DNA of 64,000 nucleotides from an uncultured Eubacteriaceae bacterium (GTDB taxonomy: Bacteria > Bacillota > Clostridia > Lachnospirales > CAG-274), in NCBI GenBank assembly GCA_947167715.1, contig CAMVJD010000005.1:1-64000 (forward strand), given 5' to 3'. The notes beneath the pieces are model-generated. The model ran no database searches. It was not told the DNA's origin and worked only from the letters and a program-made list of their open reading frames with translations. The position numbers were made by a program, and so were the translations under genes. Shown here in pieces: positions 2,974-34,850 of the stretch. Within the stretch, counting starts at the first letter, position 1. Each line of letters begins with the position of its first letter.

Positions 2974-4067
2974 ATGAAAGGTAAGTGTGAATGTAAAAAA
3001 ATAATTTCATTATTGCTTTGCCTTGCTCTTGTTTCGGGCTGTGCGAATACAAACAATAAAAATGAAGCAACAAATGATACGATAAAAATTGCGGTTTTTG
3101 AAAACAGCGGTTTACAGCAGGAGTGTTTCAGAAAAGGCATAGAACGGGCGTACAACGATGTTAAGGAAGAATACAAAAACAGCGGATATACGATAGAGTG
3201 TGATTTTTACGGCAGCGGAGCGACATACGAAAATGTCTCCGACATCACGGCCGAGCTTGTAAAAGATCCCACGCTTACTGCGATCATAGGTTCCGAAGCG
3301 GTCGTGGTATGTGAAAATCAAGCTGTTGCGGCACAGAAAAACGAAAAGATATTGGTCGTTCCCGGTTGGATCGACGATAGAATTATGACTGCCGAAAATG
3401 ACATGATATTTTCTGTTACAAACAGTAATGACGATATGGCAGCGGCCATAAAAAGAGTGGCTGACGAACTGCCTGAAAAAAATTGGGCGGTATGTGCATC
3501 AGAGGATATTATTTGCACAAGTGAAGCACAGTATTTCAGAAAAAAAGATGTAAAAAATGTTCTTGACTACTGTGATATAGATGATCTTGGTATTTATTAT
3601 GACAGTGTAAAGGAACGATGGGAGAGTCTTGGTATAGATGGGATCGTGCTTTTGCCCTTTGATGATGAGGGTTATGAATATCTGTGTAAATTAAATGAGG
3701 ATATGCCCGATCTGTATGTTGTGGCCGATTATAGTATGGAGGTCCCGATGGACTGCGAAGGATATGAGGGCGTACTAAAAAACTTTTATGTTACATCGGG
3801 CTTTTATATTGACAAAGAAGATAAGGATATTACTGAAAAAACGATTTTGCGGCCAAATGGGAAACCCACGGTTACAATACATTCAGAGTGTTGGCTGATA
3901 CCGCCGTTAAAAGCAAAACAACGGATCCGAAGCGAATTGCAGCTATACTTCATACGGATGGCTACAAGGGTATCGGCGAAACTTTTGAATTTGAAAAAAA
4001 ACGGGTTGCCTATAACGAAAAAATACAGTTTTACCAAAATGGACACAATGGAAGAATGCTTAATTGA
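2974..4067 (+). pseudogene. Periplasmic-binding-type lipoprotein, frameshifted
   Basis: A lipoprotein signal (lipobox LVSGC) opens a type 1 periplasmic-binding fold resembling ABC substrate-binding proteins of the branched-chain amino acid group. The segments AIIGSEAVV and GIDGIVLLPF lie where this fold usually has them. Near 3836-3849, at a run of six A bases, the sensible translation moves to another frame. The shifted frame carries a good binding-protein C-terminus (GYNTFRVLADTAV, GYKGIGETFEFE) and stops at 4065-4067, while the original frame runs on as unrelated sequence to 4089. This is either a true pseudogene or a one-base error at the homopolymer. The start is uncertain: ATG 2974 gives a compact signal peptide, and ATG 2947 is also open. 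Confidence 0.6.
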
Positions 4068-4091: not shown

Positions 4092-4491
4092 ATGAAGGAT
4101 TTATTTATCCGTTCTCCTGCCGATGGTTATGTTATTTCTATTTTGCAAAAAGGCCGTGTCGTAAAAGAAGGGGATGTTTTTGCATTGATCGCTGCCGACA
4201 GCACAGAATTTGGCAGAGAGCGCGTTCTTTGCTTTTTGCCTACGGAAAGCAAAAACGGTATAAAATCAGGCTGTGAGGTGCAGATAGTGCTTGAATATGC
4301 TTGAAGATGACAAGACATATTTGCCTATTATAATAAATTTTGATGAAAATCCCAATTACAAAAGCGGTTTATCATGGTCGATCGCCTCAAGTGCCGGCAT
4401 TGAACCTAAGGTGGGTACAAAATGCAAATGCTCCGTTATTATCGGAGAAAAAAGACCCTATGATTGGCTGCTCGGAGGTGACATAAGTTGA
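4092..4491 (+). pseudogene. Remnant of HlyD-type NHLM bacteriocin secretion protein
   Basis: Two pieces of one protein lie in different frames. The first (4092-4304) holds a lipoyl-like motif, IRSPADGYVISI, and a following VPAE-like strand region typical of membrane-fusion adaptors. The second (about 4302-4491) matches the end of NHLM-type adaptors: a GLSWS motif, a T-x-C segment and a C-terminal EKRPYDWLLGG block. The adaptor normally spans the envelope beside a peptidase-containing ABC exporter. The N-terminal half and an internal part are missing, so it cannot work. Its stop overlaps the TTG start of the C39 remnant, the usual operon arrangement. Confidence 0.6.
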
Positions 4492-4640
4492 CAATAAAGA
4501 ACGTGCCTATTGTGCTGCAAATGGAAAATGCGGAATGCGGCGCGGCATCTTTGGCAATGATAATGCGTTATTACGGTCACTATGGCGTTCCGCTTGAGCA
4601 GCTGCGTCTTGATTGCCTTGTTTCAAGAAATGGCGTTGAC
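4488..4640 (+). pseudogene. Truncated C39 peptidase domain of a bacteriocin ABC exporter
   Basis: About 50 residues are recognisable, starting at a TTG with a strong GGAGGT ribosome binding site. They match the N-terminal C39 peptidase of peptide exporters: the motif [20 protein letters not shown] includes the catalytic cysteine, followed by [13 protein letters not shown] and LVSRNG. In intact exporters this domain cuts leader peptides after a double glycine. Here everything after about base 4635 (catalytic His, membrane domain, ATPase) is replaced by unrelated sequence in another frame, so a deletion has joined the exporter to a downstream gene. The VPLEQLR form and the adjacent adaptor favour the NHLM exporter group. 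Confidence 0.75.
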
Positions 4641-5160
4641 CGGCAAGATGGGTCAAACAAGCGACGGCTACACCATAGGCGATATGTACTGTGATGAGAT
4701 ACAGCAGGGCTCGGATGCGGCACAGACCTTCCGCATAGGCTATGAGCCTAACGGTATACTTTACCTTACCTGGAATCAGATAGACAGCAAAATAGAAGTT
4801 AATGAAAAAGATGAGGAAGTTCCTATAACAAAACGCAGTATTTATATGCGTACTTTTGACCCGCATTACAAGTCGGAAACCTATACCGATGAAGAAACGG
4901 GCGAAACAAAGTATATTTATACGGGTATGTGGGGTGCGGCAACGGTGTTTGATGTGCCTTCGGACAACAATATGATGTACAGCGAGCAGACCTTCCTTGC
5001 ACCCGATAAAGATACCGCAATGTGTGCGTTCAGACGTTTTAACTGGGTAGAAACGGAGAACGGCGTAAAAGAAGATAAAAATGCCTACCTTGTGATACAC
5101 AGATACCATATTGTAAGTGCACTTGAATTTACGGATGTTTACAGCGATGTTGAAAGATGA
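4638..5160 (+). pseudogene. C-terminal fragment of a surface-type protein
   Basis: About 174 codons remain, reading from [19 protein letters not shown] to VYSDVER and a stop at 5158-5160. No family is recognised. The composition is rich in Tyr, Asp, Glu and Thr with alternating beta-strand patterns, and resembles the beta-rich middle of the large SLH protein at 18082-26031, although I cannot align them by eye. The 5' side is fused to the C39 remnant. A small ORF with its own ribosome binding site follows 48 bp later. This layout recalls the SLH protein and its downstream peptide gene. Confidence 0.45.
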
Positions 5161-5208: not shown

Positions 5209-5322
5209 ATGAGTGATAAAATCAATAAGAATGATAAACCGATTTGCGAAGAAGTCAGCGATCGGGATTTAGATCTTTTCATCCGCAGTTGCACTTATTT
5301 AGTGCGACTGCGGGCTTTTTGA
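5209..5322 (+). CDS. Small leader-like ORF, probably truncated peptide precursor
   Basis: The ORF has 37 codons with a good ribosome binding site (AAGGAGTGATAAAA). The first 24 residues (MSDKINKNDKPICEEVSDRD onward) are charged and end in a pattern like the leader helix of double-glycine or NHLM precursors. No GG or plausible core peptide follows. Instead the reading frame runs into a Rho-independent terminator hairpin. It is best read as a leader whose core was deleted, but that is inference from composition and position beside exporter fragments. Confidence 0.35.
   Translation: MSDKINKNDKPICEEVSDRDLDLFIRSCTYLVRLRAF
5283..5320 (+). terminator. Rho-independent terminator
   Basis: The arms CCGCAGTTGCAC and GTGCGACTGCGG pair (one mismatch), with a 7-base loop, and a T run follows. 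It lies inside the end of the small leader-like ORF and closes the decayed peptide locus. Confidence 0.75.
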
Positions 5323-17791: not shown

Positions 17792-17975
17792 AATGATTAT
17801 TTTTCATTGACAAATTGCAAAATTTTTGTTAAAATTAAACCATAGTAATATTTCGGAAATGTTTTTGTAATATGCCTGCAAAAATGCAGAAAAAGGAGGG
17901 CTGACAGGTTATGAAATAGGCAGTATTCATAAATGATCGTCATAACTATACCCTTTTCATAATCAAAATAATGTA

Positions 17976-18081: not shown

Positions 18082-21000
18082 ATGAAAAGCAAGCTGAAAA
18101 GAGTAATAAGCGCGGCGATGGCTGCCGTTATGCTTATGTCTTCGGTATCGTTTGTGTATGCCGAAGAGCCGTCGGGCGCATCTTGTTTTGACTTTGAGTA
18201 TGCAAACTATGATGTGAACGAGAATGACGGAGAATTGAAAATAAAGGTAAAACGTTACGGAAGTGCGGCTAAAAGTGCGGATGTGGCGATAAAGGCGGCG
18301 GATTTTCTTTCGACCTACGGCAAGGATTACGAGATACTTGATGACGAGGGAAATGTGCTGACAAAGGTAAGCGGCGTTAAGCCCGACCCAAGCGAATTTG
18401 TTTATGACGAAAGCGTTTCGGGTTCGGGATTATATGTGATGCCCGATGAAACGGTTTCGGGCGGTGCGCTTGATGTATACGAGAGTGAGCCCGTTGACCC
18501 GTCCGAGCCTTTGGACGAAAGCGAGTTTGGCGGTTCGCCCCTTATGGCGGCACAGGCGCAGTATCTCGACCTGCCCAAAGCAAAGGATGAGGAAGAAGTT
18601 ACATCGAGCGACCTGCAAAGATCCGTTTCCGAAATGTACAAATATTTCGGCGAAGCGGAGGGCGCAGAGGGCGTTGTTCACTTTAAGGCAGGCGAGACCG
18701 AAAAGGAAATTACCGTTGTTGTTAAGGACAACGACATTGCGGAAAGCGACAAGGTGTTTATGCTGGCTGTTTTGGGTGCAGACGGGGAGAACGTTGAGAT
18801 GAAAGCCAACGCCACAACGTATGTTTCCATTATAGACGACGAGGAACACGAGGAGACTTCCGTTTCGATAGATACAAAGGTCATTACCTTAACGCAGGAT
18901 AAGCCGAGTGCCGAAATAACGGTAAGGCGAACAAGCGGTTTGCAGTATTTTACGTCGGTCTATGTTTCAACGGTGGATATAGATGACTGCCGCGGTGCTT
19001 ACGAGGAATTTGTGGGCAAAACGGTCGCATTTGTACCCGGTGAGAGCGAAAAGACCGTGACCGTAACTGCAAAAGACTTTGACAAAGCAGCAAAATTCGG
19101 CGTTAAATTGGAGGGCTATGATGATGTTCGCATAGGTACTTCCCTTGCGACTGTTTATATAAACGAAGCCCCCGAAGATACGACTATACATAACCCCGTG
19201 GAAAGCAATATTTCGGCATATTCCGCAGATGAGGAAGATGCTCCGGTTGAGGCTTATGCAATCAGCGAATATCTCAGCGAATATCTTGGTAATTACTCTA
19301 CACCTGTATATAACTATTACTTCTGGAATCACGATAAACGCGATGACGGTATGTGGGATCAGGAATGGAGAGGACGGTCGGGTTATAGTTACAGCTATAA
19401 TTCGCTTAAAATCTACCAAAAGGGCGAAGACAATTTTGAGAACTATCACACACGGGATTCCCTTGATATGATGGGTGTTTACAAAGTAGCCGCAGATATG
19501 TATAAACAAAACGGAAACGGTTACGGAAGATTGGAAACGGATACCGACTGGACATGGGCAGGCTGCATAGACGGACGCGATACCTATTCACAAAGCTGGT
19601 ACAGAGAAGAACTTACACTTTCACACAACATCAGAAATTTATATATAAAAATCGGTGTGGTAAACCACTCAAACGATAACGAATCCACTATTTATGCAAA
19701 AAATCTTGACCGCGTGTGGACAAAGTACACATTTGAAAGACGCAATGCCGACCAAAAAGTTCAGCGTCAGCTTTATGACTTTACAACGGGTACTGTTTCG
19801 CAGACCTATTTTGACGGCGAGACAAAAAAGACCGTTATGCTCAACGGCTTGGACATCAAGACCACTTGGGGAAGCGATGTTGCGGGATATTACGCAAACA
19901 CGGGCAGTCAGGTAGTATTTACTGCACCAGACAGCGTAAAAAAATACGGTTATATACTTGATAAGGTGTATTTTTACAACAGCGCAGGCAATAAGGTAGT
20001 AACAAAGACCGCAGACGGCAACGGTGAATTAAGGATAACGCCGAATCAGGCTTTTACCGCAGAACTTTATAATGCGGGTGTTTTATCAAATATGAACGGT
20101 CAGACGGGTACTATTTATGTAAAGCCGTCATATAAAATAAAATATGTTTGGACAGCTTTTTGGAATGAAAGCAACTTTATAAATTTAGATAAAAATTATG
20201 CCGGTGCAACGGTAGATAATGGTTATACAAATTATACATGGGTACGAGTACCTCAGTACAGTGTGTTGCGTATACAGTATTCACCAAATTCAAACGAAGT
20301 TCCGACAGGTGTAAAATACGGAACCAGATCAAGTGATTGGGCGGCTGCAGTTCCTAATTGGTACGGACCATATTATTATAAAGCAGGAGAACAGATATAC
20401 AGTACACTTCCGAGTCAACAAAAAGAATCTATAGATATTTCGGATTTTACAAAGGCAGAATTCGTTGTGTCTGAAAATTATACATATTTTTGGGGTACAA
20501 CAAAAGCACAAAACCTTTACCTCGGCTATGCTCCGCAGTTAAGGAGTTCGATGAAGTCAAATCTCGGTACTCTTGAAGGACTTGTTATAGATGCGGACGA
20601 TACTTCGGCAACTCCGAGACATACCGATGCAAACGGTTCAATGACCATACCGAATGTATCTATGGGCAATACTTACAGTTTCCGTGCGCTTGCACCAAGC
20701 GGCTACTATGCAAAGTGGGCTGATATGACGGGCGACACAAACGATGACGGATATTCATTCGGTACGGGTGATGAGCCGAAAACACCGAGGAACTGGGATA
20801 CAACGGGCAGGCTTAATAATGCGCGCACGCTGATAGGCGACAGAATACATATAAATCTTGAAAGAGACAATACAAGATACCATTATTATTTTGCCAAGTC
20901 CGTATTGGATACACCAATTAAAGTAAAGGGTAAGTTACAGCGCAGAAAGGCAAGCATATTACAGCTTTCCACCACCAGACGTGAAAGCGAGATAAAAGAT

Positions 21001-24000
21001 CTTTCGCCCGTAAGCGGCGTGTTTGTGAATATTGCGGGCAGTGCCGCAATGACGAAAGAAGACGGCAGTTATGTTGTCGAGCTTTCCGCAAATGAGCCGT
21101 GGGGCGCAGTAAGTGCGGCATATACGGTTGACGGCATTGAGTATGTCAGCGAAGCGAATATACAGCAGCCTAACGATTTTGTTGTGCCTGCCCTGCCTGT
21201 GTTTGAGGTTGCACTCAACAGCGTTAAGGCAAACTATGAGAACAGCAAATACGGTATTGCAAACGGCAGCAGTATTATAACAACTTATGATTCTCCTCTT
21301 ACTATCGAAATGACGATACAGGGCACATCGACTGTAAAGCCAAAAGATGCCAAGTTCAGCATTTACGATATGGACGGCAATTATTTAAGAGATGCCGACA
21401 GCAGTCTTTTTAAGGTATCAAAGCAGGAATTCAACACAACAAACAGCACCAAGTTTACCGTAAGATTTAACCCCAAGGCGGCAGTAAACAACGGTGAGGA
21501 GCTTTATGTTCGGTTTACCGACAGCAACGGCAAGCAGTACAGCGCACTTTCAACGGGCTACAAATTTGCAAGCGAGCTTACGCTTGACAAGATAGTATTC
21601 CCCGCAATAGGCAGCTCTACACTTGAAAATGCAGCAAACAGTGATATTACGGAGGATATTATAGGTAATCCTTTGGGCAACTTTTTGATAGGTCAGCTTC
21701 CGGGCGTAGACCTTGATAAGGCAACAAACGACTATCTTTCACCGGGTGCGGAAAAATGGATGAATGCCAACCCCGGCGCACCGCTTGACAGCCAATATCA
21801 ATGGACTGCCACAACATTTAACTGGGGCTTTAAAAAGTCTTTCGGCGGCGATTGGAAATACGACAGCAAGAAGAAAGACAAAGATAAGGATAAAGACAAA
21901 GGCAACGACGGCGAAGACAAAGATAAAGGTAAAGAAGGCGAAGATAAAACCGAAAAGGAAGAAACCAAAGAGTATGACGGCTTTGAGATAATCGAAAAAG
22001 CCGAAGAAGACGGCGAAAAGGTATCAAAAGACAAAGGTTCCGGCTACAGTACAAAGAGCAGCTTTAACTGGAGCTTAACACCGTTTGTGTCGTTCCGCCT
22101 TTCGCTTACACAAAGACCCGTAAAGGAAAACGGCAAAACATCGTTCAAGCCTTATTTTGAAGATCTTACCTTTGTTGTGGGGCTGAAATTTGATGTGAGT
22201 ACAAACAACACCATTTCTACACCTATCGGTATAGATGTTATAATCAATGCAAGACTTAACGGTACAGTCTCGGCTGTTTACCACATGTACAGCGATTATG
22301 AGGAAGATTGGGAAATAGATGGTGCAACGCCTTACACATCTTCCGATTTCGGAATATTCAAAAAATTCGGACCCGACAGTGCCGTAAGGCGCGAGGCTTA
22401 TATATTCCTCGACCCCATTGTATCGGTCGAAATAGGTATAAGCATAAAGATAGCCGAATTGAAAGGTAAAGCAAAATTCACTTTTGATATGGATTTCCAG
22501 TTTACCGATGAGGAAGACGAAGTCGGCGATATGGTCATAAACTACTACGGCGATATGAAGATAGACCTTGGCTGGTCTGTGGAAGTTTTCGGCATCACGG
22601 TTTATGAAAAGACTTATGACAATGTAAAAACTGTTGAATTGTTCAAACAGGGTACAAACGGTCATATCAATTTTGACACAGCCGATGATATGATAAAGGC
22701 ACTGTCTGTTGAAGAAATGTCAATGGGCGGTGACGAACCTATCGGCAATGAACCTGTTTCGAGAGCATACCTTAAAAACAGGGGCGGCTGGAACACGGGA
22801 AGTGAAATTCAGCTTTTCAGTGCAGATACCACTACCGAAAAGGTGTTGCAGCAAGGCAGCGCAGGCGGCAACAATGTCAAGATGATAAAGATAAACGATA
22901 AGGAAATGCTTATGCTGTTTATCGACGATGTTCCCACAAGAAACAATATCAATAAACGTGCGCTTTACTATACTATAGGCGACGGCACGAATTGGTCACA
23001 GCCCGTTATAGTGAACGACGACGGCACACCGGATGATTATGCGACTGTAACGGATCTCGGTGACGGAAGAATATTTGTTGCATGGTCCTCGGCGGAAAGA
23101 GCCTTTGACAATGGAACAAAACTTGAAGATATGCTTAAAACGCTTAACATTCAGGCGGCATTCTTCGACAAAAACACAAAGACTTTCGGCGAGGTTGAGA
23201 CTCTTACGAAAACCACAACAGAGGACTACACAGCCGATATTTACCCCAATGCGGTTTACGACAAGGCGACCGACAGACTTATGCTTTATTACACAAAGAC
23301 AGAGTATGACGACCTTGACACCGTGGACAGCATTTCAAAGGCATATTCGGTAAATGCTTATCTTACCTACGAAAACGGCAAATGGAGCAATGACGGTTCA
23401 GTTTATACCGATGAAGAATTAAGCTCCAACCGTATGAAACAGGTTGCAGCAGCAAACAATATGACACTTGATGAATACAAGCAGTATTACCGCGACAACT
23501 GGTACGGTCAGAAATTCCTTGACCTTAGATTGAGCGATACCGCAGCACTTACAAGAGTTGCGGATGCATCTGCAGTATACTATGACGGTCAGGCAATATT
23601 TGCATGGACAACAGACTGGGACAACGACCTTAATACAACATTCGACAGAGATGTATTTATTCAGGTATACGATTTTGCAAGCAAGGAATTCAAGCACATT
23701 ACAAGAATTACCGATTCTATGGAAACGGCGGAAGTGACCGACGGCGATTCGGACATAACAAAGTACGGCACAAGCGGTTACTTTAATCCTGTTCTCGGAC
23801 GTTCCGCAAACAACACATATCTCTTCTTCGGTTCTATCGGCGAAGAGGACGAACAGGGCAAAATAAACTATGTAAACCTCAGTGATGTTGTATCGAAAGA
23901 AAAGCTTACAAAAATAACAGACGGCGGCGTAAACTATTATGTACCGAACCAAAACGCAATAAGCACCGTTATGGACAGCAAAAATGTTATGGACTTTGAT

Positions 24001-26031
24001 GTCAGCGTTGATACAAACGGCAAGATATATCTGTTCTATACGGATTCTGTAAACGGCGCTTTGCAGATTATGACGGCAATGCTTGACGATTCGGACAGCG
24101 CAGCAGATGAAAAGGCTTCACATTGGACAGAAGCAATACAGCTTACCGATGTACCCGAAAACATCTATTATATGGGTCTGGGCGCGGCCGTTATAGATGA
24201 TATGGTCTATATAGGCGCAGGCAAGGCAAATTATGATGATGAAGCGGACAAGAGCCTTGTACTTTTGAAGCATGTTCCGACATCGGATGTTGTGATCGAT
24301 GATATTTCCGTTGATAAAAAGAATTTCAAGGCAGGCGATATTATCGAAGTTTCGGCACTTATGAGAAACAAGGATATGCTGCCCGAAACAAAACCCGTAA
24401 ATGTAGTATTTACGGTAAACGGAAAGAAAGTTGATACACAAACGGTAGAATATACCGTTCCCGGCGGTTTCTCATCACAGGTAACTGCGCAGATAGAGAT
24501 ACCCGAAAACCCCGTTGATATTACATTCGGAGCATATGTTGACGGCAACGGCGATGTTAAGGAGATAACCGTTGAAAACAGTGCAAACTTGGTCGTTGAC
24601 GAGCAGCAGCTTGAATATGTGGATTCGGGAAGCTATATTTACAAGTCAACAATAACAAATGTGGGCGGTAAGACTTCCGAACCGGCAAGTATTTCCGCAG
24701 TATATGGCAATACCGAAGTTGAAACATTTGATGTTCCTGCACTTTCGGGCGGCGAATCAACATTTGTCGAAATGCCGATAGAAATAGATGCAGACGAGTT
24801 TGGCAAAGAACGCGACACAACATCTATGACGGTAGGAATGATATATAATGACGAAACTATCGCAGAAAAGACGGCTTATGTAAATAACCCGTACTACTGG
24901 GATGTAGTCGATACTATTGCAAAGGTAGATGCAATAGGCTTTGAAGAAAGCTACACGATACAAAAGGGCGAAAGCCTTGATATCCAGCCCGTTATCAGCG
25001 GTGTTGACAAGGAAACGCTTAAAGTATGGTGGGATGAAACAAGCGACGGCATACCCGTTGAAATAGACGGCTCGAATATCATTTACGGCGATGTTGCAGG
25101 TACGGCTACTATCACGGGACACCTTGTACCTTATGCAGATGAATTTGATTTTGCTGCGGACGGTACGGCAGAAAAAGTAGATTGGCTTGACAGACTGCCC
25201 GAAAGCAGTATCGTTAAGGTATCGGCGGTTGTAAATGTTGTTGACGAAACTGAAAGCACAACGGAGATAACTACCGAAGAAAGTACCGAAGCAACAACGG
25301 AAAACACAAGCGAAACGACCACGACCGAAACACGCAGAAGTTCCGGCGGCGGTGGCGGCGGTTCAAGCAGCAGCTTGGCAAAGCAGACCACGACCGAAGC
25401 CGACACGGAAGAAACAACGGCAGATGTTGTTGAAAACGAAACGGTCGATGTTATCGAGGATAACACCGAAGCGGCAACGACTTCCGCAAGGTTTACAGAC
25501 AGCGCGGGTCACTGGGCAGAAGATGTTATCGAAAAGGCTGCGGCAGACGGTATTGTAAGCGGTTATGACGATAATACTTTCAGACCGAACAACAGCATCA
25601 CAAGAGCCGAGTTTGTGGCGATGCTTTACAACAGCGGCCTTGCAAGCACGGAATACCCAGAAATGTTAAGAGAATTTGTAGACGTTGATTATTCCGAATG
25701 GTATGCAAAATATCTTATGTGGGCTGTGGGCAACGGCATTATAACAGGCTATGATGACAACACCTTCCGTGGAAATGATGTTATCACAAGACAGGAAATG
25801 GCAGTTGTTGTAAGCAAGTTTATTGCTTTTGCAGACAAAGACCTTGAAAGCTATGTTGATATAACATTTACCGATGAAGCGGACATCGCACAATGGGCAA
25901 AGCCTTATGTTGACGATATAAGCAAAAAGGCGGTCGTTAAGGGCGATAACTACGGCAATTTCAACCCCGAAAAGGAATTGACAAGAGCCGAAACTGCTGT
26001 TATAATAACAAATATAAAGACGAACGAATAA
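18082..26031 (+). CDS. Giant SLH-anchored surface protein with Calx-beta domains
   Basis: This 2,649-residue secreted protein has a signal peptide of about 27 residues ending SFVYA. Two Calx-beta-like domains follow (about 35-255 and 257-363; signatures KAGETEKEITVVVKDND and VSIIDDEE). The middle is beta-rich. A charged spacer of Lys/Asp/Glu lies near 1262-1298. Residues about 1590-2056 carry propeller-like repeats (GDGRIFVAWSSAE, AIFAWTTDWDND, TYLFFGSIGEED). Two CARDB-like domains cover about 2070-2300, and a Thr/Glu linker with RRSSGGGGGGSSSS leads to three SLH domains (about 2471-2649; GHWAEDVIEKAAADGI and two more). SLH domains bind pyruvylated cell-wall polymer, so the protein is displayed on the surface. 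A peptide gene starts 20 bp after its stop. Confidence 0.88.
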   Translation: MKSKLKRVISAAMAAVMLMSSVSFVYAEEPSGASCFDFEYANYDVNENDGELKIKVKRYGSAAKSADVAIKAADFLSTYGKDYEILDDEGNVLTKVSGVKPDPSEFVYDESVSGSGLYVMPDETVSGGALDVYESEPVDPSEPLDESEFGGSPLMAAQAQYLDLPKAKDEEEVTSSDLQRSVSEMYKYFGEAEGAEGVVHFKAGETEKEITVVVKDNDIAESDKVFMLAVLGADGENVEMKANATTYVSIIDDEEHEETSVSIDTKVITLTQDKPSAEITVRRTSGLQYFTSVYVSTVDIDDCRGAYEEFVGKTVAFVPGESEKTVTVTAKDFDKAAKFGVKLEGYDDVRIGTSLATVYINEAPEDTTIHNPVESNISAYSADEEDAPVEAYAISEYLSEYLGNYSTPVYNYYFWNHDKRDDGMWDQEWRGRSGYSYSYNSLKIYQKGEDNFENYHTRDSLDMMGVYKVAADMYKQNGNGYGRLETDTDWTWAGCIDGRDTYSQSWYREELTLSHNIRNLYIKIGVVNHSNDNESTIYAKNLDRVWTKYTFERRNADQKVQRQLYDFTTGTVSQTYFDGETKKTVMLNGLDIKTTWGSDVAGYYANTGSQVVFTAPDSVKKYGYILDKVYFYNSAGNKVVTKTADGNGELRITPNQAFTAELYNAGVLSNMNGQTGTIYVKPSYKIKYVWTAFWNESNFINLDKNYAGATVDNGYTNYTWVRVPQYSVLRIQYSPNSNEVPTGVKYGTRSSDWAAAVPNWYGPYYYKAGEQIYSTLPSQQKESIDISDFTKAEFVVSENYTYFWGTTKAQNLYLGYAPQLRSSMKSNLGTLEGLVIDADDTSATPRHTDANGSMTIPNVSMGNTYSFRALAPSGYYAKWADMTGDTNDDGYSFGTGDEPKTPRNWDTTGRLNNARTLIGDRIHINLERDNTRYHYYFAKSVLDTPIKVKGKLQRRKASILQLSTTRRESEIKDLSPVSGVFVNIAGSAAMTKEDGSYVVELSANEPWGAVSAAYTVDGIEYVSEANIQQPNDFVVPALPVFEVALNSVKANYENSKYGIANGSSIITTYDSPLTIEMTIQGTSTVKPKDAKFSIYDMDGNYLRDADSSLFKVSKQEFNTTNSTKFTVRFNPKAAVNNGEELYVRFTDSNGKQYSALSTGYKFASELTLDKIVFPAIGSSTLENAANSDITEDIIGNPLGNFLIGQLPGVDLDKATNDYLSPGAEKWMNANPGAPLDSQYQWTATTFNWGFKKSFGGDWKYDSKKKDKDKDKDKGNDGEDKDKGKEGEDKTEKEETKEYDGFEIIEKAEEDGEKVSKDKGSGYSTKSSFNWSLTPFVSFRLSLTQRPVKENGKTSFKPYFEDLTFVVGLKFDVSTNNTISTPIGIDVIINARLNGTVSAVYHMYSDYEEDWEIDGATPYTSSDFGIFKKFGPDSAVRREAYIFLDPIVSVEIGISIKIAELKGKAKFTFDMDFQFTDEEDEVGDMVINYYGDMKIDLGWSVEVFGITVYEKTYDNVKTVELFKQGTNGHINFDTADDMIKALSVEEMSMGGDEPIGNEPVSRAYLKNRGGWNTGSEIQLFSADTTTEKVLQQGSAGGNNVKMIKINDKEMLMLFIDDVPTRNNINKRALYYTIGDGTNWSQPVIVNDDGTPDDYATVTDLGDGRIFVAWSSAERAFDNGTKLEDMLKTLNIQAAFFDKNTKTFGEVETLTKTTTEDYTADIYPNAVYDKATDRLMLYYTKTEYDDLDTVDSISKAYSVNAYLTYENGKWSNDGSVYTDEELSSNRMKQVAAANNMTLDEYKQYYRDNWYGQKFLDLRLSDTAALTRVADASAVYYDGQAIFAWTTDWDNDLNTTFDRDVFIQVYDFASKEFKHITRITDSMETAEVTDGDSDITKYGTSGYFNPVLGRSANNTYLFFGSIGEEDEQGKINYVNLSDVVSKEKLTKITDGGVNYYVPNQNAISTVMDSKNVMDFDVSVDTNGKIYLFYTDSVNGALQIMTAMLDDSDSAADEKASHWTEAIQLTDVPENIYYMGLGAAVIDDMVYIGAGKANYDDEADKSLVLLKHVPTSDVVIDDISVDKKNFKAGDIIEVSALMRNKDMLPETKPVNVVFTVNGKKVDTQTVEYTVPGGFSSQVTAQIEIPENPVDITFGAYVDGNGDVKEITVENSANLVVDEQQLEYVDSGSYIYKSTITNVGGKTSEPASISAVYGNTEVETFDVPALSGGESTFVEMPIEIDADEFGKERDTTSMTVGMIYNDETIAEKTAYVNNPYYWDVVDTIAKVDAIGFEESYTIQKGESLDIQPVISGVDKETLKVWWDETSDGIPVEIDGSNIIYGDVAGTATITGHLVPYADEFDFAADGTAEKVDWLDRLPESSIVKVSAVVNVVDETESTTEITTEESTEATTENTSETTTTETRRSSGGGGGGSSSSLAKQTTTEADTEETTADVVENETVDVIEDNTEAATTSARFTDSAGHWAEDVIEKAAADGIVSGYDDNTFRPNNSITRAEFVAMLYNSGLASTEYPEMLREFVDVDYSEWYAKYLMWAVGNGIITGYDDNTFRGNDVITRQEMAVVVSKFIAFADKDLESYVDITFTDEADIAQWAKPYVDDISKKAVVKGDNYGNFNPEKELTRAETAVIITNIKTNE

Positions 26032-26051
26032 AAAACGAAAGGAGTGCTTTT

Positions 26052-26240
26052 ATGATGAATGATAATCTTGATAAGATCAAACAGGAAGATATGGAAAAGG
26101 TGACGGGAGGTTCAGGCGGGCCGTGCACATGTTCTGTCAATGAAGTACTATACGAACCGACACACGATATTAAAACTGATGGTAGCATCAAAAATGTGCC
26201 CTATGAGCCTACACACGACCTCGACAAGCAGTCAAAATAA
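26052..26240 (+). CDS. Small peptide with double-glycine leader, candidate RiPP precursor
   Basis: The ORF has 62 codons with a strong ribosome binding site (GAAAGGAG). The first 20 residues (MMNDNLDKIKQEDMEKVTGG) are a textbook double-glycine leader, the kind cut by C39 peptidase exporters after GG. The predicted core is 42 residues: SGGPCTCSVNEVL, then YEPTHDIKTDG, and a second near copy YEPTHDLDKQ. Two cysteines two residues apart and the duplicated YEPTHD block suggest modification or metal binding, but no modifying enzyme is adjacent. It lies 20 bp after the giant SLH protein, ahead of a terminator, so the two are probably co-transcribed. It could instead be a bacteriocin-like peptide or signal. 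Confidence 0.6.
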   Translation: MMNDNLDKIKQEDMEKVTGGSGGPCTCSVNEVLYEPTHDIKTDGSIKNVPYEPTHDLDKQSK

Positions 26241-26276: not shown

Positions 26277-26308
26277 AAAACGGGGCGGTCATTGCGACCG
26301 CCCCGTTT
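26277..26308 (+). terminator. Strong terminator after the SLH-peptide operon
   Basis: AAACGGGGCGGTC and GACCGCCCCGTTT pair perfectly around a 4-base loop. Confidence 0.85.
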
Positions 26309-26514
26309 GGTTGCATTATTTGAAAATGCTCTTTGTAGCGGCATACCGCTTTTATTCCAATTTTAAAAGCTAATAGCTGAATAAAAACTAATCGCTATAT
26401 GCTATTTTCAAATAGTACCATTCGGAATTATTCTCCATTTGAATTTTGTTGCTATTTTTGCGTAGCATCTGTGTAGCAAATGGGGTATTCCTACATTTTG
26501 CTAAATTCCAATGC
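26309..26514. other. Non-coding stretch with tyrosine-recombinase-like arm repeats
   Basis: No gene is visible here. The stretch holds short direct repeats (GTAGCATCTGTGTAGCAAATG near 26462-26482, and further TAGCA/TGCTA words) of the kind found beside attachment sites of tyrosine recombinases. They differ from the GGTGTCA repeats of the element to the right, so they may belong to another, lost element that used the same site. Confidence 0.35.
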
Positions 26515-26708: not shown

Positions 26709-27932
26709 TCATATCACCAATATCTTATTATCGAGGTCGGAAAAAACAGCTTTCTTTTTATCGAGTGTAACTTCGGAATAAATATTAAGCGTTGTTTGAG
26801 CATCCGAGTGACCCATAATTTCTTGTATAACTTTTATGTTAGATTCGTTTTCGCAAAAACGTGTACAAAATGTGTGACGAAGATTGTGCGCCGTAAAATC
26901 TCTCACAAATGCGGGAGGTCTGTTTTCAGCTTTTGCATTTTCTGCTTCGTTAATATTGCAACATTCAACTATTCGTTTGAGTGCCCTTGTTACATTATGC
27001 TGCGAAGTGACATTTCCGTCTCTCGTCATAAATATAAAACCGAAGCATCCGTCAACGATAGTCATATTAAAACCGGTTTCTTCTTGTTGCTTTCTTTCAT
27101 CCAGCAATGCTTTTTTCACAACGGTAAGCATCGGGATTTCTCTGACACCCGCATTTGTTTTGGGTGTTGTTATATGAAATTCTGCCTTGCCGTTGTCTTG
27201 TACTCTGTAAACCAAATTATGGTCAACAGAAATGATATTGTTATCAAAATCGCAGTCTGACCAACGCAGACCACACAGCTCGGAAATTCTCATTCCCGTT
27301 CCAAGCAATACAACAAGCATATTATACCAACATTTGTACATATTGGAATTTGACACAAAGTTAAGCACTTTTGTTTGTTCCTCAATAGTCAGCGCGTGTC
27401 TTTTCGGGTTCTGCCAATGCCGCGACTGTTTTATTTCTTTAATCAAACCATCAGTTGGATTTTTGCGGATAATGTCATCACGAACAGCACGAGTAAAAAC
27501 AGGATGAAGTATACTGTGTATAGATTCAAGGCTATGCGGCTTGAAATTACATTCATCCAGCATGTGTTTGTAAAATTTAAGCATATCCGAATACTTAAAT
27601 GAGCTTATAGGACGTGTACCTATTGTAGGGCGAACATACTTGCCATACAGATATTTATAATTGCTTCTTGTTGATTGCTTTAGTTCAGTTTTACCCGCAA
27701 TATACTCATCATAAATATCGTTCAGTGTTATACCTTTTGTATCTGTTCGTATTCCGTCTTCAATATCTTTTTGTATTGATTTTTCTTTTTCTCTTAATTC
27801 CTGCAGGGAGTGTGCATATATTGTGCGGCGTTTTCCGTTTTCATCTGTATAGCGGTACTGATATCTTCCGTCTGTTCTGAAACTTTCGCCGTCTTTAAGC
27901 ACTCTGCCTTTTGGATCTTTTCTTTTTTTCAT
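26709..27932 (-). CDS. int: Tn916-type tyrosine integrase
   Basis: The product has 407 residues. The N-terminal arm-binding domain (KGRVLKDGESFRTDGRYQYR) is typical of Tn916-family integrases, followed by a core-binding helical domain (SFKYSDMLKFYKHML). The catalytic domain shows the first arginine in GTGMRISELCGLRW, then HNLRHTFCTRF (His-x-x-Arg) and the final GHSDAQTTLNIYSEV with the nucleophilic tyrosine. All catalytic residues are present, so the enzyme should be active. It inserts and removes the element at the lysS 3' end. The stop lies 140 bp from the left attachment site, as is usual for this family, with xis just upstream. Confidence 0.93.
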   Translation of the reverse strand: MKKRKDPKGRVLKDGESFRTDGRYQYRYTDENGKRRTIYAHSLQELREKEKSIQKDIEDGIRTDTKGITLNDIYDEYIAGKTELKQSTRSNYKYLYGKYVRPTIGTRPISSFKYSDMLKFYKHMLDECNFKPHSLESIHSILHPVFTRAVRDDIIRKNPTDGLIKEIKQSRHWQNPKRHALTIEEQTKVLNFVSNSNMYKCWYNMLVVLLGTGMRISELCGLRWSDCDFDNNIISVDHNLVYRVQDNGKAEFHITTPKTNAGVREIPMLTVVKKALLDERKQQEETGFNMTIVDGCFGFIFMTRDGNVTSQHNVTRALKRIVECCNINEAENAKAENRPPAFVRDFTAHNLRHTFCTRFCENESNIKVIQEIMGHSDAQTTLNIYSEVTLDKKKAVFSDLDNKILVI

Positions 27933-28024
27933 AGTATGTACCCTCCTATTTTTTTAATAAGTAGGGCAATACATAAGTACAATATTATTGTAAACTATTT
28001 CCCTACAAAAATCAAGATTTATAT

Positions 28025-28231
28025 TCAGATCACAGAGATTTTTTCAATATAATCATCAAAAATCCTGCGTTTTATCAATCTTTTCGTTCCTACCCATAAA
28101 ACAAATGGGCAATTTCTTTCATTTGATAATTCTCTTAATTTGTTTATGCCAATGTTGGAATACTTGGCGGCTTCTTCCAAGGTTAAATTTGCTTTGTTCC
28201 AAAATGGTATTTCAATAATATCTTTTGACAT
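28025..28231 (-). CDS. xis: Tn916-type excisionase
   Basis: This 68-residue protein (IPFWNKANLTLEEAAKYSNI, GINKLRELS, KRLIKRRIFDDYIEK) matches the small winged-helix excisionases of the Tn916 family, which bend the element's ends to favour excision. It lies 92 bp upstream of int on the same strand in the standard order. The ribosome binding site is AGGAGGGAC. Confidence 0.85.
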   Translation of the reverse strand: MSKDIIEIPFWNKANLTLEEAAKYSNIGINKLRELSNERNCPFVLWVGTKRLIKRRIFDDYIEKISVI

Positions 28232-29012
28232 AAAATGTCCCTCCTGACTTGTGAAATAAAAGTATTTGATATAATTAGGTTAAAGAAACCAAAGCGAGAA
28301 CGTGATTCTCCCACGGACTGTTTTTATCGAACTTCATTATAAAACAGTGCCGCACCCTTTTGTTTTCGTCAGGCTTGCAACGCTGCAGGTCTCCTTGCCC
28401 ATACGCCGATAACAGAAACGATCTATTACTTTTTTCGAAATGTTTATCGCTCGTACCTTTGTGATAGTTTTATGGAAGTCCCTCATCACTTTTTACCCGA
28501 TAGGGCAGGTAGTCTTGGCGCACTTTGTAACAGCAATGTATAGGCAATTTGTTACTTTGGTTACTGCGGTTTCCCACTATTCGGTTTTCAAAGTAAAGGC
28601 TAAAATTTACCCTTACACTATATGTCTAAAAAAGGGTTTTTTGCGGAGTGTGTTTTTTATAAAAAACGAAAAAGTTAATAAAATGTTTACACTTTTTCGT
28701 AATATTGTGTATAAAAATTTCCCCCTTATTCACCCTTCTACTATACGTCCAAAAAGTGGCATTTTGCGGAGTGGTTTTTGGGAAAATTCTAATATCCTGA
28801 TTAAAAAACTTAAAAATGTTTTCCGTAAATTAACCCTTACACTATACGCCAAAAAATGGGTGTTTTGCGGAGTGATTTTTTAGAAATTTACAGATAAATA
28901 TTATTTGAGATAGATAAATAAAAAAAGCCGGCAAGTCCATAATTGCCCTGTCAGCCTGATAAATACGCTATTGAAATTAGTTACATCTTATTCGTTTTAA
29001 AAGGTCTGATTT
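28232..29012. other. Long non-coding region of the element with degenerate repeats
   Basis: No convincing gene was found on either strand. A 147-codon plus-strand frame at 28440-28883 is compositionally odd and is not called. Three diverged copies of a roughly 36-bp word ending in TTTTGCGGAGTG lie at 28615-28650, 28738-28773 and 28839-28874. Each begins with ACTATA and has a run of A bases before the G-rich part. The region may hold the origin of transfer or a regulatory RNA, but nothing shows which. Confidence 0.45.
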
Positions 29013-29167
29013 AACAAACTAAGGAAGTCCCCCGCTTCTAAAGCGGGGGTGCTTACTTAAAATTCAGTGGGAGTCCAAGCTCCCACTGAATTTGGAATTG
29101 CTTGCAATTCCGTTGGTTATGAGTATGTAGCAGAAATTTATTTCTGCGGAATACGAATATCATTGAC
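29013..29167. repeat. Palindrome-cluster repeat, short copy (E2)
   Basis: This is the compact form of the repeat at 15033-15323 with the same four hairpins in the same order and identical outer ends (AACAAACTAAGG ... ATATCATTGAC). It lacks both inserts of the long copy. It sits inside the mobilizable element, while the long copy sits in chromosomal debris, so the repeat has moved or been copied. Confidence 0.75.
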
Positions 29168-29437
29168 TTCTTTGCAAGCATTGAATTTGGGCAGCCACTT
29201 TCGATTTTTTAATGTTCAAAAGCATTTGAAAATGAAAAAGCCGAAAGTGGACAGCCGCCATTCTCACTTGTTTGGGAGACCCTAATACCCCTGTGTTTAC
29301 CTGCGGCAAAATTTTAGATGCTGATTTGAATGTGATATAATGAATTTTTGCGATTGGTACTTGAATTAAAAATGTATTTATCTTATAATTATATCAGAAA
29401 ATATTTGTACAGAAGAATGAAACGGGAAGGTAATTTT
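29168..29437 (+). promoter_or_regulatory. Upstream region of the nuclease/methyltransferase operon
   Basis: No gene. A short inverted repeat CCACTTTCG (29195-29203) and CGAAAGTGG (29242-29250) lies here, and a TATAAT at 29336-29341 could be the -10 element for the downstream operon, although no good -35 box is visible. Confidence 0.35.
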
Positions 29438-30484
29438 ATGGCTAATGAAATTTCTAATTTTGATATAGAAAAAATATATACGGATATTTCGGAGATAATC
29501 GTATCGACAAAAAAATCCGTAATGTATTCAGTAAATACATCTGTAATAAAAATGTATTGGGAAATAGGAAAGACTTTATCTGCAAATATTGTTCCCGGAA
29601 ATAAGGCGGATTACGGAAAAAACATCATAGGAGAGATTGGCAGCAGATTATCTGCTGAATATGGCAAGAATTTTGGGCGTTCTGCCATTTCAAGAATGAT
29701 GAATTTTTATAATGAATTCCCCGAGTATGAGATTGTTGCGACACTGTCGCAACAATTAACGTGGTCGCATTTTGTTGAGTTGCTGCCTATTCAAGATGAA
29801 TTAAAAAGAAACTTCTATGCTACAATGTCAAGAAAAGAAAATTGGTCGGTCAGAACATTAAGAGAGCGTAAAAAATCAATGCTTTATGAACGCACAGCTA
29901 TATCCAAAAAACCGGGTGAAACCATTGCAAACGAAATAGCCGAGCTGCGCGATGAAAATAAAATGAGCCTTGATATGTTTTATCGTGACCCATATATGCT
30001 TGATTTCTTGGGATTGAAAGACTCTTACAGCGAAAAAGATTTGGAAAATGCCATATTGGCAGAATTGGAGAAGTTTATACTTGAAATGGGTTCGGACTTC
30101 GCTTTTCTTGCAAGACAAAAGCATATCGTTATAGATGGCAAGGACTATTATATGGACTTGCTTTTTTATCATCGTTCTTTGAGACGATTAGTGCTTATAG
30201 AATTAAAACTCGGAGAATTTGAGCCGCAGGATAAAGGACAGACGGAATTGTATTTGAGGTGGCTTGAGAAATACGAAAAAGCGGAATATGAGGAGTCTCC
30301 CGTAGCGCTGATATTATGTGCCGAAAAATCACAAGAAACTGTAGAACTGTTAGAACTTGACAAAGGAAGTATCCACGTTGCACAGTATCTTACAAAAATG
30401 CCGCCAAAAGCATTGTTGGAACAAAAATTGTCATTGGCTATCGCAAATGCAAAATCGATGCTGGAGCAAAGAGAACAGAACTAA
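29438..30484 (+). CDS. YhcG/DUF1016 PD-(D/E)xK nuclease-domain protein
   Basis: The product has 348 residues. The N-terminal domain (IVSTKKSVMYSVNTSVIKMYW, YGKNIIGEIGSRLS, SHFVELLPIQDE) is the YhcG_N domain and the C-terminal half is the nuclease-like YhcG_C. The catalytic pattern D-x(n)-E-x-K appears as YYMDLLFYHRSLRRLVLIELK, consistent with a working PD-(D/E)xK site. Members are frequent in defence islands and mobile elements, but their role is not settled. It starts at ATG 29438 behind GGGAAGG and ends 26 bp before the MmeI-like gene, so the pair are probably one operon. Confidence 0.85.
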   Translation: MANEISNFDIEKIYTDISEIIVSTKKSVMYSVNTSVIKMYWEIGKTLSANIVPGNKADYGKNIIGEIGSRLSAEYGKNFGRSAISRMMNFYNEFPEYEIVATLSQQLTWSHFVELLPIQDELKRNFYATMSRKENWSVRTLRERKKSMLYERTAISKKPGETIANEIAELRDENKMSLDMFYRDPYMLDFLGLKDSYSEKDLENAILAELEKFILEMGSDFAFLARQKHIVIDGKDYYMDLLFYHRSLRRLVLIELKLGEFEPQDKGQTELYLRWLEKYEKAEYEESPVALILCAEKSQETVELLELDKGSIHVAQYLTKMPPKALLEQKLSLAIANAKSMLEQREQN

Positions 30485-30510
30485 AGGTTGAAATTTTGGG
30501 AGGTGGAGTT

Positions 30511-33285
30511 ATGAACGAAAAGGAACAGAAAAAGGCAGCTAAGGACTTTGCCCAAAGGTGGCAGGGTAAAGGATATGAAAAAGGACAATCTCAGCAATTT
30601 TGGATAGATTTACTTGTAAATGTTTATGGTGTGGAAGATATTGCCGGATTTATCAGTTTTGAAGATCAGGTTCATTTAGACCATACCTCTTTTATAGACG
30701 GCTATATTAAATCCACCCGTGTTATGATAGAGCAAAAGTCTATCGGTAAAGATCTGCGAAAGCCTATCAAGCAATCCGACGGTTCATTGCTGACTCCATT
30801 CCAGCAGGCGAAGCGTTACGTTACCGAACTGCCGCTGTCACAACACCCTCGATGGATAATAACTTGTAATTTTGAGGAATTTCTTGTCTACGATATGGAA
30901 AAGCCGAACGGTGAACCCGAGCAAATATTTCTCAAAGACCTTGCCAAAGATTTTTATCGACTGCAATTTCTTGTTGAAACAGGCAGTGAAATGCTTAAAA
31001 AGGAAATGGAAATTTCTTTGAAGGCGGGCGAACTTGTTGGAAAGCTGTATGATGCAATATTAAAGCAATACAAGAACCCCGAAAGCCCCGAAACACTTAA
31101 AAGCCTTAATATGCTTTGTGTAAGACTTGTATTCTGCTTATATGCGGAAGATTCCGAAATATTTGGTAAGCACAGAATGTTCGGGCAGTATCTTTCGCAT
31201 TTTCAACCCAAAGATGTCCGCAAAGCTTTGATAGAACTGTTTCAAGTCCTCGACACTAAACCCGAAGACCGTGATCCTTATATGGATGATGACCTTGCGG
31301 CTTTTCCTTATGTGAACGGCGGTTTGTTTGCCGATGAAAACATTGAGATACCTCGATTTACCGATGAAATTGTCGGTTTGCTTATAAACGGTGCAAGTGA
31401 GAACTTTGATTGGGCAGACATAAGCCCTACTATCTTTGGTGCAGTATTTGAAAGCACGCTGAATCCCGAAACAAGACGTTCGGGCGGTATGCACTATACT
31501 TCTATCGAAAATATTCACAAAGTTATTGATCCGCTGTTTCTTGATGATTTAAAGACGGAATTTGCGGAAATTTGTGAAACAAAGGTCGATAAAACAAGAA
31601 AAGCGAAGTTAGAACAATTTCGTGATAAACTTGCTTCGCTTACATTCCTCGACCCTGCCTGCGGTTCGGGAAACTTTCTCACGGAAACTTACATCAGCCT
31701 GCGCCGTCTTGAAAATAAGGCTTTAGAAGCCATACACGGCGGTCAGATGATACTTGGCGGAGTTATTCCCATAAAAGTTGGCATCGGTCAATTTTACGGA
31801 ATAGAAATAAACGACTTTGCCGTAACTGTCGCAAAGACCGCACTTTGGATAGCCGAAAGCCAAATGATGCACGAAACCGAAGAAATAATCCATGCAGACC
31901 TTGATTTTCTTCCGCTGAAAAGTTATGCCAATATCGTTGAAGGTAATTCGCTTCGTATAGATTGGGAGAGTGTTGTGCCAACAGATAGGCTGTCTTATAT
32001 TATGGGGAATCCACCGTTTGTAGGATATTCTCTGCAAAGCAAAGATCAGAAAGAGGATATGCTGTCAATTTATGTTAATGAAAAAGGTAAGCCTTATAAA
32101 ACAGCGGGCAAAATAGATTATGTGTCCGCTTGGTATTTTAAGGCTGCACAGCTTATGGTCGGAACAAATATCCGTACTGCTTTTGTTTCCACAAACAGCA
32201 TAACGCAAGGCGAGCATGTCGCAGGTGTTTGGAAACCATTATATGAGCGTTTCGGAATACATATTGACTTTGCACATCGTACATTCCGTTGGGATAGCGA
32301 AGCAAGCATGAAAGCCCATGTGCATTGTGTTATTGTGGGGTTTAGTATTGCCGAAAATAAAGCAGATAGACGACTTTTTGATAATGGTACAGATAAAGTT
32401 GTCAAAAACATTAATCCATTTTTAATTGAAGCACCTAATGTTTTTATAGAAAGCCGCAGTATTCCTATTTGTAAAGTTCCCGAAATGGTTTATGGGAACA
32501 AGCCGACAGATGGTGGATTCCTTTTCCTCACACCTGATGAAAGAGATCAAATACTTACCAAAGAACCTAAAATCCAAAAATATATAAAACAGATATATGG
32601 AGCTACTGAATATATTAACAACAAATTGAGATACTGTATATGGCTTGTAAACGCTTCTCCCTCTGATATTAGAAGTTCTGAATTTTTATCAGAAAGAATT
32701 GCTGGAGTAAAAAAATTTAGACTGAACAGTACGAAAGAAGCTACTAAACGAAGTGCAGATACACCTACACTTTTCCAAGAAATCAGACAGCCAAATACTA
32801 CATATATACTTATTCCACGTCATTCATCAGAAACGAGGCGATATATTCCATTTGGCTTTGTATCGCCTGAAATTATAGTAAATGATGCTGTACAAATCAT
32901 TCCTAATGCTGATTTTTACCATTTTGGAATACTTATGTCTAATGTTCACATGGCGTGGACAAGAGTGGTTTGTGGAAGAATAAAAAGCGATTACCGTTAC
33001 TCAAAAGACATTGTATACAATAATTTCCCTTGGTGTACACCCACTGACGAGCAAAAAGCTAAAATAGAGCAAACCGCACAAATGATACTTGATGCAAGGG
33101 CGAAATATCCCGATTGTTCACTTGCCGATCTCTATGATGAAACAACTATGCCGCCCGAACTTCGCAAGGCACATCAGCAAAACGATAAAGCCGTTATGCA
33201 AGCCTACGGATTTTGGGGCAAACTCAACACCGAGAGCGAGTGCGTGGCTGAACTTATGAGGATGTATCAAAAACTGACGGAATAA
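30511..33285 (+). CDS. MmeI-like single-chain restriction-modification enzyme (type IIG/IIL)
   Basis: This 924-residue protein matches MmeI-type enzymes, which are about 920 residues, in length and order. The N-terminal nuclease domain has a D-x10-E-x-K pattern (DGYIKSTRVMIEQK, about residues 58-71). A helical spacer is followed by a gamma-class adenine methyltransferase with SAM motif FLDPACGSGNF (about 379) and catalytic NPPF (about 499). The last 300 residues form the target-recognition and C-terminal domains. Such enzymes cut DNA lacking their own adenine mark and modify one strand of the site; the target sequence cannot be predicted. ATG 30511 follows GGGAGGTGGAG. Confidence 0.85.
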   Translation: MNEKEQKKAAKDFAQRWQGKGYEKGQSQQFWIDLLVNVYGVEDIAGFISFEDQVHLDHTSFIDGYIKSTRVMIEQKSIGKDLRKPIKQSDGSLLTPFQQAKRYVTELPLSQHPRWIITCNFEEFLVYDMEKPNGEPEQIFLKDLAKDFYRLQFLVETGSEMLKKEMEISLKAGELVGKLYDAILKQYKNPESPETLKSLNMLCVRLVFCLYAEDSEIFGKHRMFGQYLSHFQPKDVRKALIELFQVLDTKPEDRDPYMDDDLAAFPYVNGGLFADENIEIPRFTDEIVGLLINGASENFDWADISPTIFGAVFESTLNPETRRSGGMHYTSIENIHKVIDPLFLDDLKTEFAEICETKVDKTRKAKLEQFRDKLASLTFLDPACGSGNFLTETYISLRRLENKALEAIHGGQMILGGVIPIKVGIGQFYGIEINDFAVTVAKTALWIAESQMMHETEEIIHADLDFLPLKSYANIVEGNSLRIDWESVVPTDRLSYIMGNPPFVGYSLQSKDQKEDMLSIYVNEKGKPYKTAGKIDYVSAWYFKAAQLMVGTNIRTAFVSTNSITQGEHVAGVWKPLYERFGIHIDFAHRTFRWDSEASMKAHVHCVIVGFSIAENKADRRLFDNGTDKVVKNINPFLIEAPNVFIESRSIPICKVPEMVYGNKPTDGGFLFLTPDERDQILTKEPKIQKYIKQIYGATEYINNKLRYCIWLVNASPSDIRSSEFLSERIAGVKKFRLNSTKEATKRSADTPTLFQEIRQPNTTYILIPRHSSETRRYIPFGFVSPEIIVNDAVQIIPNADFYHFGILMSNVHMAWTRVVCGRIKSDYRYSKDIVYNNFPWCTPTDEQKAKIEQTAQMILDARAKYPDCSLADLYDETTMPPELRKAHQQNDKAVMQAYGFWGKLNTESECVAELMRMYQKLTE

Positions 33286-33379
33286 TCATTGTACAAAAAC
33301 TTCACTAAAATTGCACGAAGATTTCATTGTCAAACATTAAAATATCAGATATGATTTATAAAAAAGGAGAATGTTCATT

Positions 33380-33625
33380 ATGTACAATAATCAATTTAAC
33401 AATCAATTTTTTAACCCGCAGTATGTAAATCCGTATTATTATCAACAAATTGAACAGCAGATGGCTCAACATCAGTTTGAACAAACCAAAGAAGTGATAA
33501 ATGTTATGAAAGCGGTCAAAGATCTTTGTGAAGCAAGCAAAAAGTTGGATCCTCAACATCAGCAAATTGCTTTTAATATGGCACTCACAGTAATGGCGAA
33601 AGAGTTTGGATGGAGTAATGGATAA
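33380..33625 (+). CDS. Small Gln/Asn-rich protein of unknown function
   Basis: This 81-residue protein starts with an Asn/Gln/Tyr-rich segment (MYNNQFNNQFFNPQYVNPYY) and then has a charged helical part (TKEVINVMKAVKDLCEASKK, QIAFNMALTVMAKEFGW). I do not recognise a family. ATG 33380 is chosen over ATG 33371 because AAGGAGA ends just before 33371. It follows the restriction gene on the same strand, 94 bp later, and ends at a terminator shared with the convergent HTH gene. Confidence 0.6.
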   Translation: MYNNQFNNQFFNPQYVNPYYYQQIEQQMAQHQFEQTKEVINVMKAVKDLCEASKKLDPQHQQIAFNMALTVMAKEFGWSNG

Positions 33626-33696
33626 TATACAACCGTAAAAAACATATAAAGTAAGATATTGTACGATTTCCGAGAAACCGTTACGATGTCAAAAAA

Positions 33697-33742
33697 TCAA
33701 GTGTATTGTCATAGCATACCTAAGACAACACACTTGATTTCA
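33697..33742. terminator. Bidirectional terminator
   Basis: AAATCAAGTGT and ACACTTGATTT pair around TTGTC/GACAA. It lies between the convergent small-protein and HTH genes. Confidence 0.7.
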
Positions 33743-33744
33743 TC

Positions 33745-34794: not shown

Positions 34795-34821
34795 ATTGTT
34801 GCACCGTCCTTTCATGTTTTT

Positions 34822-34850
34822 ATTATAACACGAAGAATTTGGGTAATCAA
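34822..34850 (-). promoter_or_regulatory. Promoter of the HTH gene
   Basis: Read on the minus strand: TTGATT, 17 bp, TATAAT. The predicted transcript start is near 34815, giving a leader of about 20 bases. Confidence 0.65.

Follow-up and report, generated by a model that had tools for sequence, protein, structure and literature searches.

A giant SLH-domain protein gene and its double-glycine peptide neighbour in uncultured Clostridia

Double-glycine (GG) leader peptides exported by C39 peptidase-containing ABC exporters (PCATs) are generally interpreted as bacteriocins or signals. We describe here a locus in which the gene of such a peptide, a 62-residue precursor, directly follows the gene of a giant surface protein of 2,649 residues with SLH domains; it lies in a window of 64,000 nucleotides from an uncultured Eubacteriaceae bacterium (GenBank assembly GCA_947167715.1, contig CAMVJD010000005.1, positions 1 to 64,000). 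The leader consensus and the precursor size are like those of the PCAT-exported bacteriocins and ComC-type pheromones, whereas no immunity or two-component genes are seen, the cores are hydrophilic and the peptide is tied to a giant SLH gene. With the NHLP/NHLM systems (TIGR03794, TIGR03796, TIGR03797; Haft et al. 2010, PMC2887384), the loci have in common a PCAT and a second ABC subunit, to which the relatives of the window locus add an HlyD-like adaptor. They differ in that the precursors are without nitrile-hydratase or Nif11 leader and regularly stand next to a giant surface protein; where tested (G012), the exporters inside the giant loci do not reach the curated cut-offs. MAM of Faecalibacterium, a GG-leader protein of >100 residues, is proposed to reach the envelope through export by a PCAT and itself to form a lattice (PMC12184118). 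Both are GG-leader products of gut clostridia, MAM differing from the present peptides in that these have 21-42 residues and the SLH anchor is on a separate large protein. The PLL/PHL propeller lectins of Photorhabdus have a predicted fold in common with the central domain of the giant, although the propeller of the giant is only about 12% identical at the level of the fold and is embedded within the SLH protein of 2,649 residues. An earlier reading of the window from its sequence only had stated that no described system is known to pair a giant surface protein with such a precursor, and no description of this pairing was found in the open-access literature. The components (SLH protein, propeller, GG peptide, PCAT) are of known kinds, and their combination is new as far as that literature shows.

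The pair and its recurrence

18082..26031, + strand: giant surface protein, 2,649 residues, with putative signal peptide, Calx-beta, propeller, CARDB-like region and three SLH domains (open reading frame (ORF) list, Pfam, model)
22816..24459, + strand: predicted lectin-like beta-propeller region of the giant, residues about 1579-2126 (AlphaFold2 model, fold match)
25489..25998, + strand: three C-terminal SLH domains of the giant (PF00395 at 25489-25614, 25675-25803 and 25864-25998; Pfam)
26052..26240, + strand: GG-leader precursor, 62 residues, with leader 26052-26111 and core 26112-26237 (ORF list, translation)
26151..26168, + strand: YEPTHD copy 1 (sequence comparison)
26202..26219, + strand: YEPTHD copy 2, with four synonymous differences from copy 1 (sequence comparison)

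The Pfam scan of the giant finds SLH domains (E 8e-38) and Calx-beta repeats (E 1e-14), and its N-terminus looks by eye like a signal peptide; with three SLH domains, the giant is predicted to be an SLH-anchored surface protein. The AlphaFold2 model of residues 1340-2160 (26 sequences, mean predicted local distance difference test score (pLDDT) 75) has a beta-propeller, the top structural matches of which are PLL/PHL lectins (Z 29, 2.6 Å over 310 residues), and the propeller domain has zero sequence matches to PDB chains at E 0.1. The central domain is thus predicted to be lectin-like by its fold, and sugar binding is a candidate property. A sialidase reading of the propeller, ranked first by Foldseek, was set aside, the PLL/PHL fold match being closer. 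The members of the giant family are usually made up of Calx-beta, the lectin-like propeller and three SLH domains, and no relatives were found when viral contigs were searched.

The peptide gene begins 20 bp after the stop codon of the giant and has a good ribosome-binding site (RBS), AGGAG just 5' of the ATG. Its leader, MMNDNLDKIKQEDMEKVTGG, has 20 residues, ends in VTGG and carries I(-12), D(-8), M(-7), V(-4), G(-2) and G(-1), and thereby appears close to the consensus of PCAT substrates (hydrophobic at -12, acidic at -8, L/M at -7, V at -4, and GG; PMC12184118), as expected for a putative C39/PCAT leader. The core of 42 residues contains CTC and two YEPTHD motifs, the latter encoded by an 18-bp repeat whose copies differ at four bases, all four differences being synonymous. 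The motif was found nowhere else in the 48 genomes of the family; this uniqueness and the purely synonymous differences argue that the peptide is translated and that YEPTHD is selected. The codon usage of the peptide gene provides no information. Both ORFs, their spacing, the GG leader, the CTC and the YEPTHD duplication are as the sequence-only reading had given them, and the repeat is real. Matches of the peptide to a Pfam viral protease (E 0.054) and to TIGR04149 (E 0.029) are sub-threshold and were rejected; no match to an NHLP (TIGR03793) or Nif11 (TIGR03798) leader is seen at E 0.5.

A single-sequence search of the genome contigs with the window peptide found zero homologues, and the survey was therefore run via the giant, using a profile of the shared central domain of the giants (A1) to find relatives in the family, order and class. 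A peptide was called where an ORF of 30-120 residues with a start codon, an RBS and the motif [LM]..[VI][STAVK]GG occurs at most 600 bp downstream of a gene. Such an ORF stands directly downstream of 24 of the 43 giants and of 2 of 284 other genes (p 1.5e-22, with those two counted against the pairing), a p value that overstates the evidence, since the criteria were relaxed (GTG/TTG starts, V or K at -3) once the first peptides were known and related loci are not independent. Both exceptions are in giant loci: in G492 a gene lies between the giant and the peptide, and in G502 the gene is apparently the frameshifted end of a giant. (G numbers denote genomes, G000 being that of the window, and C numbers denote contigs.) The stronger point is that the pairing recurs in several families across the class. 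As negative controls, related proteins of 1,600-1,800 residues with a weak match to the central domain are without GG peptide. The peptide at G012 uses a GTG start. The sequence-only reading would have failed if peptide homologues never occurred beside giant SLH proteins; the closest homologue, at G004:C40 in the same genus, is found 27 bp 3' of another giant SLH gene and is itself followed by a second GG peptide. The pairing of giant and GG peptide is a genuine recurrent association. The named relatives come from assemblies of uncultured Clostridia or Bacillota, and several carry labels that point to the rumen or duodenum of sheep, goat or roe deer. One single-contig genome of 5.5 Mb (G564:C1; L207, L212, L217) has three giants of the family, and a GG peptide directly follows two of them but not the third.

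The mature cores of 26 peptides are mostly of 20-24 residues, about 21, and hydrophilic (median grand average of hydropathy -0.9), with a median net charge of 0; the window core is longer than most. None of the 26 matches a curated Pfam or NCBIfam family over its cut-off. The core types, as assigned by eye, track the giant clades, with 8 changes compared with 16.2 when shuffled. An exception is that the window and G004:C40 have a common leader type and different giant clades. A resemblance by eye of KNVPYEPTHDLD in the window to NVPRVPEHKIDD of the class-level peptides is suggestive only.

Exporter genes, intact and decayed

The sequence-only reading had the peptide borrow an exporter from elsewhere in the genome, and it missed that in many relatives the exporter belongs to the same locus. 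Exporter genes lie in the locus or next to it in G007, G008, G012, G015, G022, G044, G054, G718, G581, G744 and G400. In G008, G012, G015 and G054, the giant and the peptide share the locus with an HlyD-like adaptor, a C39-ABC protein (PCAT) and a second ABC subunit; a substrate-binding lipoprotein is also present in the first three of these and is not seen in the G054 stretch. At the class level (G718:C21, G581:C8, G744, G400), the exporter pair is immediately 5' of giant and peptide. Variants of the locus with a non-ribosomal peptide synthetase (NRPS) and an Lgt-like protein occur in G002, G006, G007, G022 and G044, assigned by model in G006 and G007 and by similarity of the protein starts in G002, G022 and G044. 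The NRPS/Lgt-like sub-type (L088, L092, L098, L100, L107, L108) has the conserved peptide core SL[KR]D.H.R.

Within the family, a C39 exporter is found in 17 of the 20 giant-bearing genomes and in 6 of the 28 others (p 2e-5), the genomes being sorted by hand and two being counted on truncated giants. G010 and G041 have giants, lack the C39 exporter and have no peptide beside the giant. G003 is giant-bearing without C39 exporter, and its contig ends too early to judge the peptide. In G009 the C39 exporter lies away from the giant locus, next to a precursor that is Nif11-like by eye, and no peptide adjoins the giant. The genome of the window has a single complete PCAT/ABC pair, on contig C33, which could serve the peptide from elsewhere in the genome, as had been proposed. 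This pair is over both NCBIfam cut-offs (ABC1, 886 versus 853.3 bits; ABC2, 715.5 versus 709.4 bits), the C39 residues are present by eye, and its C39 domain closely resembles the protease LahT150, which has been shown to tolerate a diversity of leaders (PMC6363468).

It had also been stated that no exporter adjoins the pair. This holds for intact genes; exporter remnants are nevertheless present in the window at about 4098-4670, within a degenerate copy of the entire locus (2974-5322) that the sequence-only reading missed:

2974..4041, + strand: decayed substrate-binding lipoprotein gene, frame broken near 3813-3858 (tblastn; partial Pfam Peripla_BP_6)
4098..4482, + strand: HlyD-like adaptor remnant, frame broken (tblastn)
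4489..4670, + strand: remnant of a C39 exporter (PCAT), first ~55 residues (PF03412, E 1e-7)
4636..5154, + strand: part of a second giant gene, with 73% identity to the G000:C6 giant and joined to the PCAT remnant (tblastn)
5209..5322, + strand: relic of a second peptide gene, leader-like but with the GG lost (translation, by eye)

The joined PCAT and giant fragments show that a large internal deletion took most of the exporter and of this giant. The lineage therefore once possessed a complete locus, at a distance of ~13 kb from the pair that survives, and this explains the orphan look of the latter.

Short GG-leader peptides also occur in tandem beside exporter genes, six at G006:C79 (L100 12359-13802) and four at G049:C97 (L163 9300-10001). 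A second class of GG-leader peptides, of 74-92 residues with a zinc-ribbon-like tail (CPKCGG...GQxCxCGYSWTFG), is present in the genome of the window (G000:C8, L174 8937-9439) and in L165, L166, L169, L172, L175 and L177-L180; in L165, L166 and L169 these peptides adjoin a PCAT/ABC pair of the C33 type.

Possible functions of the pair

In the most likely reading, the 62-residue precursor is cleaved after Gly-Gly and secreted by a C39 peptidase-containing ABC exporter; the candidate exporter in this genome is the NHLP-type pair of contig C33, since the local exporter genes are decayed. The mature peptide, of 42 residues here and about 21 in most relatives, would then reach the cell surface, the site of the co-encoded giant, and may be retained there. 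Peptide and giant would form a functional unit, the peptide acting in the surface assembly of the giant as a small ligand or subunit rather than as a killing agent. We consider the chances that a C39-exported peptide acts in this way with the giant lectin-like SLH protein to be about even. A functional link between giant and peptide is well supported by the conserved pairing, by the shared absence of peptide and exporter and by the co-variation of types; physical binding is inferred. The sequence-only reading, partly supported overall, had also suggested that the peptide might be displayed on the giant or released through it, a suggestion that goes beyond the functional link. More tentatively, the pair may represent a class-wide module in gut Clostridia: a C39-secreted peptide of ~21 residues would dock, as a dedicated ligand or subunit, on the giant lectin-like propeller protein anchored to the S-layer and would control what this protein binds, a proposal that we regard as rather doubtful.

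Several observations weigh against a functional unit. The giant can exist alone, as a GG ORF directly downstream is lacking for 19 of the 43, and at G002:C28 two such peptides persist without a giant. No ortholog of the window giant with an assembled 3' flank is available (in G005, G021, G004:C11 and G063, which have giants of the window type, the contig breaks off within the gene), and the nearest complete relative, G010:C45, is without peptide. An intact HlyD partner (TIGR03794) was not found over the cut-off in the genome of the window, the TIGR03794 match beside the C33 pair covering model positions 1-45 only, and a promoter-like site at the 3' end of the giant gene may uncouple giant and peptide. 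The G002:C28 locus (L172 11727-13577) has kept both flanking peptides of a giant locus of the G000:C6 type, the giant is gone and a serine-recombinase-like gene lies between them.

The main rival is that the peptide is a diffusible, pheromone-like signal, that the giant is merely co-regulated and that the sensor of the peptide, or of some related molecule, is the substrate-binding lipoprotein of the exporter locus and not the giant. Short, hydrophilic cores and the presence of the Peripla_BP_6 lipoprotein with the exporter in several loci agree with such a role; however, no kinase or regulator is seen beside the pair, and the most regular neighbour is the giant and not the lipoprotein; loci without lipoprotein retain giant and peptide. 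We judge a signal to be unlikely, though worth serious attention. The clear enrichment of peptides next to giants across several families, with varying intergenic distance, and the absence of the peptide together with the exporter make it very improbable that the two genes are neutral neighbours, brought together by descent or hitch-hiking without common function, even if many giants are without peptide and the peptides at G002:C28 survive without a giant.

The leaders score weakly, below the cut-offs, on the ComC, Bacteriocin_IIc and TIGR01847 models, which would be in agreement with a class II bacteriocin for which the giant gives target-cell contact or protection. Yet these matches are sub-threshold only, the cores are hydrophilic and near-neutral, the core types are conserved within giant clades and no immunity gene is seen beside the window precursor, where a hairpin and then an opposite-strand integrase follow; a bacteriocin is accordingly a poor candidate. 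Equally little probability is given to the peptide being an envelope structural or assembly factor in its own right, with incidental adjacency to the giant. The precedent is MAM, as a GG-leader protein thought to be PCAT-exported to the envelope (PMC12184118), but the present cores have about 21 residues compared with >100 for MAM, and their adjacency to giants is far above chance.

Returning to the ligand or subunit role, the regular presence of a giant lectin-like surface protein beside these peptides suggests a third use of PCAT-exported peptides, in which they serve the bacterium's own surface. If so, uncultured gut Clostridia would have a surface apparatus that annotation has overlooked, as no Pfam or NCBIfam family covers the cores, and the giant gene upstream could be used to assign some of the orphan GG peptides.

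Transcription signals and neighbouring genes

17807..17835, + strand: promoter-like site 5' of the giant gene (TTGACA-17-TAAAAT, 11/12; consensus scan only)
25978..26006, + strand: perfect extended -10 promoter-like site (TTGACA-17-TATAAT) within the last codons of the giant (consensus match)
about 26278..26308, + strand: 13-bp G+C-rich hairpin, terminator-like (folding; overlapping scan match 26293-26315)

Giant and peptide had been read as a two-gene operon closed by a terminator. A strong hairpin does lie 3' of the peptide; given the internal promoter-like site, the operon need not be obligate, and the peptide may also be transcribed separately. This site ends 45 bp ahead of the peptide ATG, and the match is partly set by the SLH codons; the same promoter-like site also occurs in G012 and is absent from the other 16 upstream regions and from ten control gene ends.

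Directly after the peptide and before lysS, an apparent mobile element (26709-37523) encodes a Tn916-type integrase and excisionase, a DUF1016 nuclease, and DNA methylase-like and relaxase-like proteins; no clear att repeat was found for it. At 5344-7305, the window encodes a secreted protein of 653 residues with a C-terminus, NGDVNKDGYVDKADA, that is dockerin-like by eye.

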